A program made the translations under genes and the position numbers. DNA of 38,585 nucleotides. Origin: a virus. Location of the stretch: the IMG/VR virus record IMGVR_UViG_3300021407_000027, positions 1 through 38,585 of that record; one strand, given 5' to 3'. Within the stretch, counting starts at the first letter, position 1. Each line of letters starts with the position of its first letter. The notes below the pieces were generated by a model, which was not told the origin of the DNA, did no database searches, and saw only the letters and a program-made list of their open reading frames with translations. Of the stretch, positions 2,919 to 18,736 are shown in pieces.

Positions 2919-3260
2919 TTAACCCGCGATGAACTGGTTGAAGGAGATGACCTTGGTGCCGCCAGAGGTGGCAGCGGCCCAGGCGACGAGAACGCCATCA
3001 GTGTTAGGGCCAACATCACGGCCTAGGGTGACCACAAGGCGCTTGCCAGAGGGTGCGTCGACCTTGTCATCCAATGCCTGTTGCAGAGCAGCCTTGACTT
3101 GGCGAGCGTTGATCTCGGCCTCAACGGCAGCCATGGCGAGTTGCTGCAAGTCGCGAGGCATATCGGCAAAGGGAAGCTTGGCCCAGGATAGCTTCGCCTT
3201 GTCAGCGCGAAGGATCGCATCGGCAGCGGCGGAGGTCTGTGACTTGAATGCGATTGTCAT
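2919..3260 (-). CDS. Conserved-looking small late phage protein (113 aa), function unknown
   Basis: The start is the ATG at 3260: a GGAG Shine-Dalgarno lies 8 nt upstream and overlaps the earlier in-frame ATGs at 3272 and 3266. The protein begins MTIAFKSQTSAAADAILR, contains a helical middle (LQQLAMAAVEAEINARQVKAA) and ends with a beta-type segment (GKRLVVTLGRDVG ... VISFNQFIAG). No cysteine, membrane segment or catalytic motif is visible. It is the first gene of the leftward unit and is closed off by its own hairpin, suggesting separate or high expression. I do not recognise a function; a head-associated or DNA-binding accessory role would be speculation. Confidence 0.75.
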   Translation of the reverse strand: MTIAFKSQTSAAADAILRADKAKLSWAKLPFADMPRDLQQLAMAAVEAEINARQVKAALQQALDDKVDAPSGKRLVVTLGRDVGPNTDGVLVAWAAATSGGTKVISFNQFIAG

Positions 3261-15285: not shown

Positions 15286-15405
15286 ATGCTCTCAATCTCC
15301 TCAATTAACGGCGTGGTCCGCATAATGGTGAATAAAATAGTGGTCTGGGAGGGAACCATAGGAGAATGGTCTCATGCACTTGCTAGTGCCAAGGTCAAGG
15401 AGTGA
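15286..15405 (+). CDS. Micropeptide, unknown function (39 aa)
   Basis: ATG at 15286 with GGAG 6 nt upstream. Product MLSISSINGVVRIMVNKIVV ... ends ALASAKVKE. A longer frame from a TTG at 15205 runs through the terminator hairpin and is less likely. The hydrophobic, beta-like sequence is not a clear membrane helix. Low confidence. Confidence 0.4.
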   Translation: MLSISSINGVVRIMVNKIVVWEGTIGEWSHALASAKVKE

Positions 15406-15407
15406 TT

Positions 15408-15674
15408 ATGAGTGTGATTGAGACCCTCCAAGAGCGCCACATAACCCACGGCAGCTTTGCCGATAACGCGTTCTATTCACAAGACTTCAAGAAAACCCTC
15501 CATTCCTCAAAGGGTTGGTGGGATCTGCATCCAGTTCAGCAAGAAGCCCTTGATCAGATTGCGCTGAAGCTCTCGCGCATCCTCTCAACCGATGGCAAGC
15601 ACAGCGACAACTGGCACGATGTGGCAGGGTATGCAACCTTAGTTGAGAAGTGGTTGAAGGGAGAGCATCTGTGA
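15408..15674 (+). CDS. DUF6378-like protein (88 aa)
   Basis: ATG at 15408 has AAGGAG 5 nt upstream; a GTG at 15402 would overlap it. The sequence (ETLQERHITHGSFADNA ... QQEALDQIALKLSRIL ... HSDNWHDVAGYATLVEKWL) matches the small phage/bacterial family with conserved ERxxxYGSF-like start, ALxxIAxKxARI helix and WxDIAGYA motif, known as DUF6378. It resembles an all-alpha NTP pyrophosphatase-like fold, but activity is unproven. Confidence 0.7.
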   Translation: MSVIETLQERHITHGSFADNAFYSQDFKKTLHSSKGWWDLHPVQQEALDQIALKLSRILSTDGKHSDNWHDVAGYATLVEKWLKGEHL

Positions 15675-15841
15675 ACCGCTACGACAAGCCCTTTATCTTC
15701 CATCTAGAAGGTGACTGGTATCGTTGGTCACCAATAGCATCCCATCCGGTTATTTGTATATGGTGTGGATGTTGGATTGAGGTTCATTTAGATAAAATAC
15801 TAGAAGTAGTCAACAAGTACCAAGCACTATGCAGCAGATGA
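15671..15841 (+). CDS. Small cysteine-containing protein (56 aa)
   Basis: GTG start at 15671 overlaps the preceding stop (GTGA) and has GGGAG upstream. VICIWCGCWIEVH carries three closely spaced cysteines that may bind a metal. The end overlaps the UDG-exonuclease gene by 13 nt. No family recognised. Confidence 0.45.
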   Translation: MNRYDKPFIFHLEGDWYRWSPIASHPVICIWCGCWIEVHLDKILEVVNKYQALCSR

Positions 15842-16947
15842 CTCCACCAATCCTCTTCATCGGCGAAGCCCAAGGCGAGGACGAAGCCGTCTTCGGCGCA
15901 AGCTTCGTCGGCTCCTCGGGGATGGAACTCCTCCGCATGATGGACACCGCGGGGATCATCCACTTCGACAACCACGACCGCCACCACGTTTCCTCCTTCT
16001 ACTCAACCCGCAACCCTGCCCACACCAACTCTATCTGGGAACGCCATGCCGACCACATTCGTCGCACTAACGTCTTCCAACAGCATCCTCCCGGCAACGA
16101 CCTTAACTTCTTCTGCGGCGGCAAGTCCACCGCTATTGCAGGTTATCCAGCCCTCACTGGATCTAAATACATTCGCGCTGAGTTTGAACCCGAACTCGAC
16201 CGATTGTGTGCCGAGATTCTTGCTCTCAATCCTAATCTGGTGGTGTGTCTCGGCAATACTCCTCTGTGGGCTCTCAGCGCTAGAACGGCTATCACAAAGT
16301 GGCGCGGCGCTACGCTCTTATCAACGCACTGCATTAGCGATTACAAGCTTCTCCCTACTTATCATCCTGCTGCTGTTCTATACCAATATAGCCTGCGCCC
16401 CACAGCCGTAGCCGACCTTCAGAAAGCTCTACGCGAATCCCGCTACCCCGACCTCAGGAGACCCTCACGTGAAATCTGGATCGAGCCCACCCTCGAAGAC
16501 ATTGCCCAATGGTTCAGCAATTACAGGGCCTCATATCGAGATCGCGTACTCGCTACGGACATTGAGACGACAGGTTCACGGATTACATGCATTGGCTTTG
16601 GAACATCCGAGTCTGCCCTTGTTGTGCCATTTGATGACGAACGAACAAAGAGCGGAAGTTATTGGCCGACTCAACAAGCTGAGCGAGATTGCATTGAACT
16701 TATCCGCTCAGTGCTCGAGGACCCAACGATCAAGAAGGTCTTCCACAACGGACTCTACGACATCCCCTTCCTCTGGCGATCAGTCGGAATAAAAGTCCTC
16801 GGCGCGGTGCACGATACGATGCTGTTGATGCATAGCCTTCAACCTGAGTCGCTTAAGAGCCTAGGCTACTGCGGCTCCCTCTTCGCCGACGAATGCGCTT
16901 GGAAGAATCTTGGGGCCCATCACAAAACCATAAAGAGAGATGATTGA
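15829..16947 (+). CDS. Uracil-DNA-glycosylase-like domain fused to partial 3'-5' exonuclease domain
   Basis: Residues about 5-205 resemble the UDG superfamily (family 4/5-like): IGEAQGEDEA at 11-20 with FVGSSG, a TNVFQQHPPGND block, LGNTPLWAL and the HP motif TYHPAAVL. Residues about 235-372 resemble the DnaQ-like exonuclease domain of family A polymerases: ExoI DIETTG (244-249), ExoII FHNGLYDIPF (305-314), then HDTMLLMHSL. The protein ends TIKRDD before ExoIII, whose Y-x3-D lies at residues 23-27 of the polymerase encoded at 17132. It therefore seems to be the N-terminal half of a split UDG-exo-polymerase system. Whether the UDG domain cuts uracil or only binds it is unknown. Confidence 0.7.
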   Translation: MQQMTPPILFIGEAQGEDEAVFGASFVGSSGMELLRMMDTAGIIHFDNHDRHHVSSFYSTRNPAHTNSIWERHADHIRRTNVFQQHPPGNDLNFFCGGKSTAIAGYPALTGSKYIRAEFEPELDRLCAEILALNPNLVVCLGNTPLWALSARTAITKWRGATLLSTHCISDYKLLPTYHPAAVLYQYSLRPTAVADLQKALRESRYPDLRRPSREIWIEPTLEDIAQWFSNYRASYRDRVLATDIETTGSRITCIGFGTSESALVVPFDDERTKSGSYWPTQQAERDCIELIRSVLEDPTIKKVFHNGLYDIPFLWRSVGIKVLGAVHDTMLLMHSLQPESLKSLGYCGSLFADECAWKNLGAHHKTIKRDD

Positions 16948-17135
16948 TGGAAACCTTAATGAAACTATACTTGGAACTTGCCAACGTGGTGCCTTCAGAT
17001 TGCCTATCCTCTCGAGAACTGGCACTCCTAACAACGATTGAAGAAGCTCGAAAGCGGCTGGCAAAGGGAAGGGCGCTTTGGAATGGTCCATGTCATGAAT
17101 GTGATGCGGTGCTAGCCAAGGCCCTTAGCAAGTGA
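16947..17135 (+). CDS. Small protein inserted between exonuclease and polymerase halves (62 aa)
   Basis: ATG at 16947 overlaps the exonuclease stop by 1 nt (TGATG); its stop overlaps the polymerase GTG start (GTGA). The product is helical and basic (METLMKLYLELANVVPSDC ... IEEARKRLAKGRALW) with a late CxxC (GPCHECDAV). It is not a homing endonuclease or intein by length or motif. It might bridge the two halves of the replication enzyme, but no function is established. Confidence 0.55.
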   Translation: METLMKLYLELANVVPSDCLSSRELALLTTIEEARKRLAKGRALWNGPCHECDAVLAKALSK

Positions 17136-18736
17136 GAATCATCAACACCTCCCGCATCGACTCCTTCACGCTGAAAGGCTTTGATCGTGATCAAGTATAC
17201 AACGGCCTCGACGTCTGTGGCACGGCGGAGATCCTTGAGCCGATGCTATCGCAGCTCGATGACATCACATCTAGAACTTATCAATTCGAGCGCGACCTAC
17301 AGGGACCTGTATTGGAGATGGGTCTGCGAGGATGCCTCATTGATAAAGCTAGAAAAGCTCAGGTTATTGACGAGTTCTGGGAAGCGCTCGAAGTCCTCGA
17401 ACGAGACCTGAATCGCATTGTCATCGAAGGCGTGGGGATGCATGACTTCAACTGGCGCTCTAATCCAGATCGCCAGCGACTCTTCTACACCGAACTCGGC
17501 CTCCCAACGATCCGCAAGCAAGGCCGCCCCACCACAGACGATGACGCGCTGGATGAACTAGAGATCTACCCAATCGCGACTCAGATCGTCAAGCATATGC
17601 GAATGATGTCCGAGCTTGGCAAAAAGCTCTCAGTCCTACGAACAGAGATCGATGATGACGGACGAATTAGAACAAGCTATAACATTGCTGGAACGAGTAC
17701 GGGAAGATTTTCTTCGAGTCTCTCAGAATTTGGGACCGGAGGGAACCTACAGAATGTTGAAGAATCTCTTCGATCAATATTTATCGCGGACCCAGGCTTC
17801 AAATTTGCTAAATTCGATGCCAAGTCCTGTCAATCCCAAATCGTCGGCGCCATCTGTTGGAACCTCTTCAACGACTCCACCTACCTCGACGCCGTGGAGT
17901 CTGGAGATGTGCACACAGCAGTTGCTCGCCTCGTATGGCCTCACATGGGATGGACTGGAGACCTTCGGCGCGATAAGCATCTCGCAGAAACCCCATTCTA
18001 CCGACATTATACTCACCGTTTCATGTGCAAAAAGATTGGCCACGGCTCGAACTTCGGGGGAGAAGCAGCAGCCATCGCCTTAGAGACAAAGCTTCCCATT
18101 GACAAGATCGCCGAGTTCCAACCAAAATACTTCGAAGCGTTTCCAGCACTAAAGCAGCGCTTTGATTGGACGCGCAATGAGCTTAAGACAAAGCGCTGCC
18201 TCACCAGCCTTGGGGGACGCAGGCGTTATTTCTTTAAGCGCCCAAGTGATAAGAAATTGCTTAAAGAAGCCCTCGCCTACGATCCTCAGGAGACTGAGTC
18301 CTACGTCGTTAATACCGCTATGCTCAATATCTGGAAGCAGAACATTGCAATCTTAATGTTCCAAGACCATGACGCTCTAACCTTTATGTACCCCGAACGC
18401 GACGAATCCCGCATCATCCCCCTTATCCAACAATCCCTCCCAGTCCCCATCCCCCTCGCACACGGAAGAACATTAACCATCCCCTATGACGTTGAAGTCG
18501 GCTGGAACAAGGGACATTACGATGAACAAAGAAACCCCGACGGCCTTCGGGAATATAATGGATCGGACGACCGGCGTCGACGATCGCAAACTGCCATCAT
18601 GGATCGAGTCGTTCATCGAAGCGACAGAAAACCTAGACGCGCCATTGATCTATCGACGCTGGACCGCGATCTCGGTGTTGGCCGCGACGGTGACGCAGAG
18701 AGTCTGGGTCCGGACGAGCTCGAATCTGTTTCCTAA
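17132..18736 (+). CDS. Family A DNA polymerase (polymerase part, split from exonuclease)
   Basis: GTG start coupled to the preceding gene. Residues 23-27 (YNGLD) supply ExoIII. The polymerase core shows TSTGRFSSS and NLQNV (about 187-209), motif A FDAKSCQSQIVGA (D229; Q234 sits where most family A enzymes have Glu), O-helix RFMCKKIGHGSNFGG (R296, K300, H304, F308) and motif C QDHDAL (H413, D414, with Ala after). It lacks a complete N-terminal exonuclease domain. The family-typical end lies near PYDVEVGWNKG (451-461), yet the frame continues to residue 534, overlapping the helicase gene by 215 nt; the extra 71 residues are Arg/Asp-rich. Confidence 0.8.
   Translation: MRIINTSRIDSFTLKGFDRDQVYNGLDVCGTAEILEPMLSQLDDITSRTYQFERDLQGPVLEMGLRGCLIDKARKAQVIDEFWEALEVLERDLNRIVIEGVGMHDFNWRSNPDRQRLFYTELGLPTIRKQGRPTTDDDALDELEIYPIATQIVKHMRMMSELGKKLSVLRTEIDDDGRIRTSYNIAGTSTGRFSSSLSEFGTGGNLQNVEESLRSIFIADPGFKFAKFDAKSCQSQIVGAICWNLFNDSTYLDAVESGDVHTAVARLVWPHMGWTGDLRRDKHLAETPFYRHYTHRFMCKKIGHGSNFGGEAAAIALETKLPIDKIAEFQPKYFEAFPALKQRFDWTRNELKTKRCLTSLGGRRRYFFKRPSDKKLLKEALAYDPQETESYVVNTAMLNIWKQNIAILMFQDHDALTFMYPERDESRIIPLIQQSLPVPIPLAHGRTLTIPYDVEVGWNKGHYDEQRNPDGLREYNGSDDRRRRSQTAIMDRVVHRSDRKPRRAIDLSTLDRDLGVGRDGDAESLGPDELESVS

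Follow-up and report, generated by a model that had tools for sequence, protein, structure and literature searches.

We analyzed a split family-A DNA polymerase in an uncultured virus, using the record IMGVR_UViG_3300021407_000027, the whole of which (38,585 bases) is referred to here as the window. Three adjacent genes are at issue: a gene for a protein joining a uracil-DNA glycosylase (UDG)-fold domain to part of an exonuclease (exo), a short open reading frame (ORF) encoding 62 amino acids (aa), and a polymerase gene (pol). The features of the locus are the following.

15829..16947, plus strand: UDG-exonuclease gene exo (372 aa), with a UDG-fold domain and an exonuclease half that holds motifs ExoI and ExoII and lacks ExoIII
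15838-16452, plus strand: UDG domain, resembling family-4 UDG/UdgX by predicted fold
16558..16575, plus strand: ExoI, DIETTG, exo residues 244-249, with catalytic D244 and E246
16741..16770, plus strand: ExoII, FHNGLYDIPF, exo residues 305-314, with N307 and D311
16810..16812, plus strand: codon of exo H328, which co-varies with pol R54
16927..16944, plus strand: TIKRDD, the C-terminal tail of exo, found in the split clade only
16947..17135, plus strand: 62-aa ORF in the break, most likely a passenger gene (ATG at 16947, stop ending at 17135)
17132..18736, plus strand: family-A DNA polymerase gene pol (534 aa, GTG start, DNA_pol_A)
17132..17197, plus strand: N-terminal extension of pol, 22 residues ahead of ExoIII, with conserved I3, I4 and T6
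17198..17212, plus strand: ExoIII, YNGLD, pol residues 23-27, with catalytic Y23 and D27, aligning with the Klenow ExoIII segment
17291..17293, plus strand: codon of pol R54, which co-varies with exo H328

An original prediction made from the window's letters had placed ExoI and ExoII on the UDG-exonuclease protein and ExoIII on the polymerase, with a small gene exactly in between. The ORF positions and the Pfam matches bear this out. The exo ORF matches the UDG family at residues 5-194 (E = 1.5e-14) and DNA_pol_A_exo1 at residues 225-341 (E = 4.5e-9), and the pol ORF matches PF00476 (DNA_pol_A) at residues 90-460 (E = 1e-28). Both proteins match one PHROG family in order (phrog_17, positions 535-783 and then 809-1248 of 1445). 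The stop of exo and the start of pol are 184 nucleotides (nt) apart, and the 62-aa ORF fills this interval exactly, with an overlap of 1 nt on the exo side and of 4 nt on the pol side. When a joined-family profile was aligned to the Klenow fragment, ExoI, ExoII and ExoIII landed on FDTETDS, QNLKYD and RYAAEDADVT, respectively. The full DEDDy residue set is present in the gene pair and not in one polypeptide: D244, E246 and D311 lie on one chain and Y23 and D27 on the other, and neither protein alone has a complete exonuclease site, as expected from the proposed division.

Related loci were sought in IMG/VR, GTDB genomes and phage records, which yielded 328 loci outside the fused clan; 302 of them held both genes, 149 were distinct after de-duplication, and 141 were non-redundant at 95%. 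The exo of the window, used as a query, matched two loci only. The break proved to be common to the split homologues: it is identical in 149/149 distinct loci holding both genes, with the end of exo and the start of pol at a constant place in all of them and 0/149 fused, and it is therefore not due to chance. The distance between the two genes is 3 nt or less in 60 of the 149 loci (29 with a 4-nt overlap, 16 with a 1-nt overlap), 4-99 nt in 3 and 100-1071 nt in 86. Remoter relatives are fused, namely Mel-JY34, ctMlz233, LS06, vir526 and EBPR podovirus 3 (L002, L003, L004, L006 and L008), together with most loci of a further locus set. In a tree of 41 rows, the split clade of the window and a pair of loci resembling Caulobacter phage Kuura formed one clade against the fused rows, with a support of 95 in the Shimodaira-Hasegawa-like approximate likelihood ratio test (SH-aLRT), so that one old fission is the simplest reading. 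Comparison of these sequences suggests that the fission is old, fixed and probably single, preceding the separation of the window clade and the Kuura-like phages.

The content of the break was assessed in the 119 non-redundant loci of the first set, 71 of which have a gap of at least 20 nt; these yielded 83 ORFs, and 82 were scanned (one displaced polymerase piece was omitted). The break ORFs of this set are mostly unrelated to one another. Endonuclease families were matched by 13/82 (HNH_3 by 8, Endonuclease_7 by 3, LAGLIDADG_3 by 1 and GIY-YIG by 1, the GIY-YIG match lying just below its cut-off in one of two scans), and other break ORFs match dNMP kinase, RNase H, a T7 gp5.9-like protein and DUF6378. 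Closely related phages differ in what they carry there. The flanking DNA of L086, with a 1-nt overlap, is 98% and 94% identical to that of L024, with 344 nt between the genes; likewise, L040, L041 and L045 (4-nt overlap), L042 and L043 (194 nt), and L044 and L048 (225 nt of other content) have flanks that are 93-97% identical. On a tree of 117 rows, from which L071 and one short row were omitted, the break must have switched at least 34 times between an empty and a filled state (loci with a 20-99 nt gap being left out of this count), and endonucleases must have appeared or disappeared at least 12 times. Of the 58 HNH_3 matches in 137 whole records (2.51 Mb), 12 fall in the break, a region with 1.1% of the bases and 0.64 expected matches; the matches were placed by position in 24 records, and the remaining ones were counted as outside the break. 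The junction is most likely an insertion site for endonucleases and passenger genes. The 62-aa ORF of the window is most likely such a passenger, with a function unassigned by family: neither Pfam nor PHROG gave a family match at E <= 0.001, it has no relative among the related loci collected in the first round, and its best match in phage records, at E = 0.7, is not significant.

Endonuclease insertion is a plausible cause of the original split, being an established route to split phage genes (in the parts covered of the review PMC2988022), and the break shows a strong excess of endonuclease ORFs. The opposite order of events, which is compatible with a two-subunit enzyme, is that the genes were parted by ordinary mutation and that endonucleases colonised the new gene boundary later, in the way they settle next to other essential genes of phages. 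Among the 24 mapped records, HNH_3 also occurs directly 5′ of exo in 7 (L009, L034, L052, L064, L081, L179 and L257) and directly 3′ of pol in 4 (L009, L024, L060 and L348); its presence at all three borders of the gene pair suggests that endonucleases seek the polymerase neighbourhood and that the break is one of the sites. Such endonuclease genes near DNA polymerase genes are described in the covered parts of PMC10448857, and those of PMC2988022 raise the same order of events for gene 43 of phage 25. Neither the established route nor the enrichment in the break dates the fission, and we give later colonisation about an even chance.

Conservation was counted in the 141 non-redundant rows, where the unreadable cells come from truncated contigs and from L071, in which the beginning of the pol reading frame is disturbed. 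All 135 readable rows have D244 and E246 (the other 6 are truncated), all 139 have D311, and all 140 have Y23, D27 and T31 of the polymerase; the columns adjoining the catalytic residues vary. The polymerase also carries its palm motifs, with D229, R296 and K300 in 140/140 readable rows and H413 and D414 in 137/137. Damage is the outcome one would expect from dividing an active site, and the exo half could have lost proofreading and persisted only as a UDG-like or scaffold subunit of a polymerase without exonuclease. The invariance of the residues on both halves, next to columns that are free to vary, makes such a loss quite improbable.

Covariation between the two chains was assessed by mean-field direct coupling analysis (mfDCA) on 121 paired rows of the 141 (604 variable columns, effective number 107), with short rows, L071 and two Kuura-like rows omitted. 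The top inter-protein pair, exo328-pol54, reached a z of 14.1 and the next pair 7.4, compared to control maxima of 7.7 and 7.6 in two random re-pairings and 7.6 in a nearest-relative swap. The two positions switch together between E/K and H/R: 117 rows combine E or D with K (44) or with R (23), or H with K (4) or with R (46), giving a Fisher test value of 8.5e-11, whereas the next best of 135 pol sites tested against exo328 gave 1.8e-4. Across 17 independent branches, pol 54 changed in the same direction 8.0 times and in the opposite one 0.7 times. The corresponding positions hold R and Q in 11 fused rows. Pairs between the exonuclease domain and pol residues 1-50 account for 11 of the top 50, whereas their share of the area predicts 2.6 and the controls gave 3, 3 and 6. 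Two other high inter-protein pairs, 353-21 and 363-21, failed the tree-based test and were rejected.

Structure models are consistent with an exonuclease fold divided between the chains. The AlphaFold2 model of the UDG-exonuclease protein of the window has a predicted local distance difference test score (pLDDT) of 90.9. Its residues 4-208 match the family-4 UDG/UdgX fold 1ui1 (Z = 17.4), and residues 215-337 match the EXD2 exonuclease domain only up to chain residue 196 (Z = 12.9), which indicates a partial exonuclease fold. In locus L035, exo and pol lie in one frame with a single TAA between them, and a read-through chain was modelled with this TAA read as Q (pLDDT 89.0, predicted template modelling score 0.83). 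This model superposes on Klenow 1kln with Z = 29.8 and a root-mean-square deviation of 3.0 over 545 aligned residues, and by this prediction the two sequences together would make a complete Klenow-like fold.

Both sides of the junction carry sequence of their own. The original prediction held that TIKRDD followed by YNGLD reads as one block in fused homologues; this did not stand, as TIKRDD is not shared with the fused forms, and the distance from a conserved WK to YN is 35 residues in split forms (33-38, n = 138) and 17 in fused ones (16-23, n = 19). In the split rows the exo tail T-I-K-R-D is conserved (T in 135, K in 130 and D in 125 of 141), as is the polymerase start M-K/R-I-I-x-T, in which I3, I4 and T6 are kept. 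Both are absent from fused forms, and by this comparison they appear to be additions of the split clade. We rejected the possibility that the tail is a mere ribosome-binding site: its R is coded by CGN in 27 rows and by AGR in 63, and the T and I upstream are conserved too, so that the amino acids themselves seem to be kept. In the models, the tail has low confidence in both, and the polymerase start is a predicted strand in the L035 read-through chain (residues 339-342). The conserved new ends may aid docking in a mode that is not visible in the models. Two breaks hold sequence like the exo tail: the break ORF of L167 (3379-3570) has TIKRDE as its last residues, and the KRDE/ATGA junction is repeated where the L044 insert ends. 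A general tendency of inserts to duplicate the junction on their right side was rejected, as the 11 nt before the pol start match their own exo tail no better than those of others (2.99 vs 2.99, 79 filled loci).

These edges also bear on whether the two ORFs are joined after all, by an intron, an intein, a frameshift or stop read-through, into one fused polymerase. Some breaks do hold endonuclease ORFs of intron-associated types, exo and pol share one frame with a stop codon alone between them in 6/150 loci, and an intron was suggested for a split PolA by the authors of PMC10580990, in the parts covered of that paper. However, the 60 of 149 loci that lack notable intervening sequence still carry two ORFs, exo closing with a stop codon and pol opening with a start codon of its own, and all three frame offsets between exo and pol occur, which leaves nothing to splice or shift. 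Each break edge bears its own conserved sequence in addition to start and stop signals. An Rfam search of the region around the window's break returned nothing at E <= 1, and in 17 loci, the majority of which carry endonuclease ORFs, nothing reached the gathering score. A general Pfam scan, in which no dedicated intein search was included, found no intein domain on exo, pol or the break ORFs. We consider a joined product very improbable. The original prediction had proposed that the small protein may act as a bridge. In favour of its helping to hold or assemble the two halves, the 62-aa gene sits exactly in the break and overlaps both neighbours, so that the three genes are probably translated in step. 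However, a gene that is missing from the break in 60/149 loci, is replaced by mostly unrelated ORFs elsewhere, comes and goes between phages with 94-98% identical flanking DNA and has no homologue in the first-round loci cannot be a required bridge, and we give this role hardly any credence.

Taking together the computed conservation of the split and of the catalytic residues, the inter-protein covariation, the variable content of the break and its endonuclease enrichment, we consider it very probable that the locus encodes a two-subunit family-A polymerase with a shared proofreading site, produced by an old and fixed fission whose junction serves as an insertion site. The first subunit would consist of the UDG domain and the first two thirds of a DEDDy 3′-5′ exonuclease, with ExoI and ExoII; the second would start with the missing ExoIII helix and continue as thumb, palm and fingers. 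The two would be translated separately and then bind, so that D244, E246 and D311 together with Y23 and D27 form one proofreading site, while homing-type endonucleases and unrelated small genes would enter and leave the junction with both subunits untouched. Judged by sequence, a physical complex of the two proteins and its exonuclease activity are likely. The earlier proposal that the working exonuclease is assembled in trans is likewise likely to be right, given the split DEDDy site, the conserved residues on both halves and the site-specific covariation.

Several observations weigh against this interpretation. The covariation is weaker after correction for the tree than in its raw form (median p about 0.02, with values from 0.002 to 0.45), and the exo328-pol54 pair may mark a contact at a domain interface, remote from the catalytic centre. 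The read-through model joins the chains via one residue and is thus no test of binding. The branch that groups the split forms has an SH-aLRT of 95 only, in a quick tree with some long branches. The role of the conserved TIKRD tail is left unaccounted for, and the break of the window has no endonuclease gene, its 62-aa ORF matching no family.

Split phage enzymes of a comparable kind have been described. In NrdA of Aeromonas phage Aeh1, a genes-in-pieces ribonucleotide reductase, the active site itself is divided. There a small intervening gene, that of the endonuclease mobE, splits a phage enzyme into two polypeptides that must reassemble, as the two proteins of the present locus probably must, and the split NrdA is fully functional according to the covered parts of PMC2988022. 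The present break lies inside an enzyme that is a single polypeptide in relatives. The Aeh1 case concerns another enzyme and was described for one phage with mobE in the break, whereas here the break is fixed in 149 loci, its content varies and it is often empty; the homing endonuclease gene that marks the Aeh1 type is lacking in the window and is represented in relatives by the 13/82 matching break ORFs. The same parts of PMC2988022 describe 43A/43B of the T4-type Aeromonas phages 25 and 44RR, a split polymerase with a homing endonuclease or an untranslated spacer between the halves; in phage 25 these co-purify and are polymerase-active. This is also a replicative phage polymerase in two polypeptides, although of family B and not family A. 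By analogy, the enzyme studied here would work like the split NrdA and 43A/43B, at a break for which we found no description: openly licensed PMC literature, a scope outside which most subscription papers fall, yielded no account of a PolA split between ExoII and ExoIII.

Within family A, the PolA of MEP401/MEP402 (Zobellviridae, phages of OM43; record OP830906) lies in two ORFs with a small ORF between them, as reported in the covered parts of PMC10580990. In contrast to the present locus, that break is within the polymerase domain (exonuclease and N-terminal PolA, then C-terminal PolA), and the exonuclease site stays in one chain. The fused UDG-exonuclease-PolA proteins of Microcystis phage Mel-JY34, ctMlz233, LS06 and IMG/VR kin have the same domain order and motifs and are 27-32% identical to the window proteins (tblastn), but they are single polypeptides with the shorter WK-to-YN distance and without the TIKRD tail or the MKIIxT start. 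The nearest isolated relative, Kuura, shares the break between ExoII and ExoIII; it differs in having two other small genes (98 and 102 aa) there and in lacking the TIKRD tail. The split is not mentioned in the parts covered of the Kuura paper, PMC9959647. The family is also broken at other places: after the UDG domain in L108 (1362-1662) and L114 (3645-3945); after ExoIII in L005/ctLwi270 (2986-3138), the break there being spanned by an 86-aa ORF that looks like a zinc ribbon; and ahead of palm motif A in L007 (Vibrio phage VS-ABTNL-3, 5147-5739), L110 (4686-4942), L111 and L116 (4707-5594), which are thus broken within the polymerase domain as in MEP401/MEP402. In L105, too, the ORF ends at this last place, after 548 aa.

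Other features of the polymerase gene and its surroundings were recorded. In palm motif A, DAKSCQSQ (17816-17839, pol residues 229-236), Q replaces E at pol 234 in the window and in 10 other rows of the 141, with E in 129; we take this to be the steric-gate position, Klenow Glu710, and sugar discrimination may differ. The C-terminal tail of the polymerase is longer in the window than in most relatives, and up to 251 nt (18486-18736) are shared by pol and the ORF that follows it (primase/helicase-like, phrog_14296) when the first start codon is used. Upstream of exo, a 90-aa ORF (15402-15674), whose PHROG matches are named phosphofructokinase, resembles by eye the break ORF of L061 (552-815), as if break passengers came from the genes of the same neighbourhood.

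A further, speculative idea, which we regard as doubtful, is that proofreading is controlled by assembly. The polymerase alone would extend without proofreading, and docking of the UDG-exonuclease protein would complete the site and add a uracil- or DNA-binding module; a phage could then adjust its mutation rate by making more of one product relative to the other, with break genes tuning this ratio via translational coupling. For annotation, the split matters in that gene callers tend to call the first half UDG or a hypothetical protein, as in Kuura, and the second a polymerase without proofreading. A replicative polymerase that divides its proofreading site between two chains, in a state fixed throughout a large group of phages, would be a naturally split enzyme for which the supply of subunits could act as a switch, and it would offer a setting in which to test how essential enzymes withstand the fission of their genes. 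With cuts at three further places, the family is also well suited to the question of whether homing endonucleases bring such breaks about or only take advantage of them.

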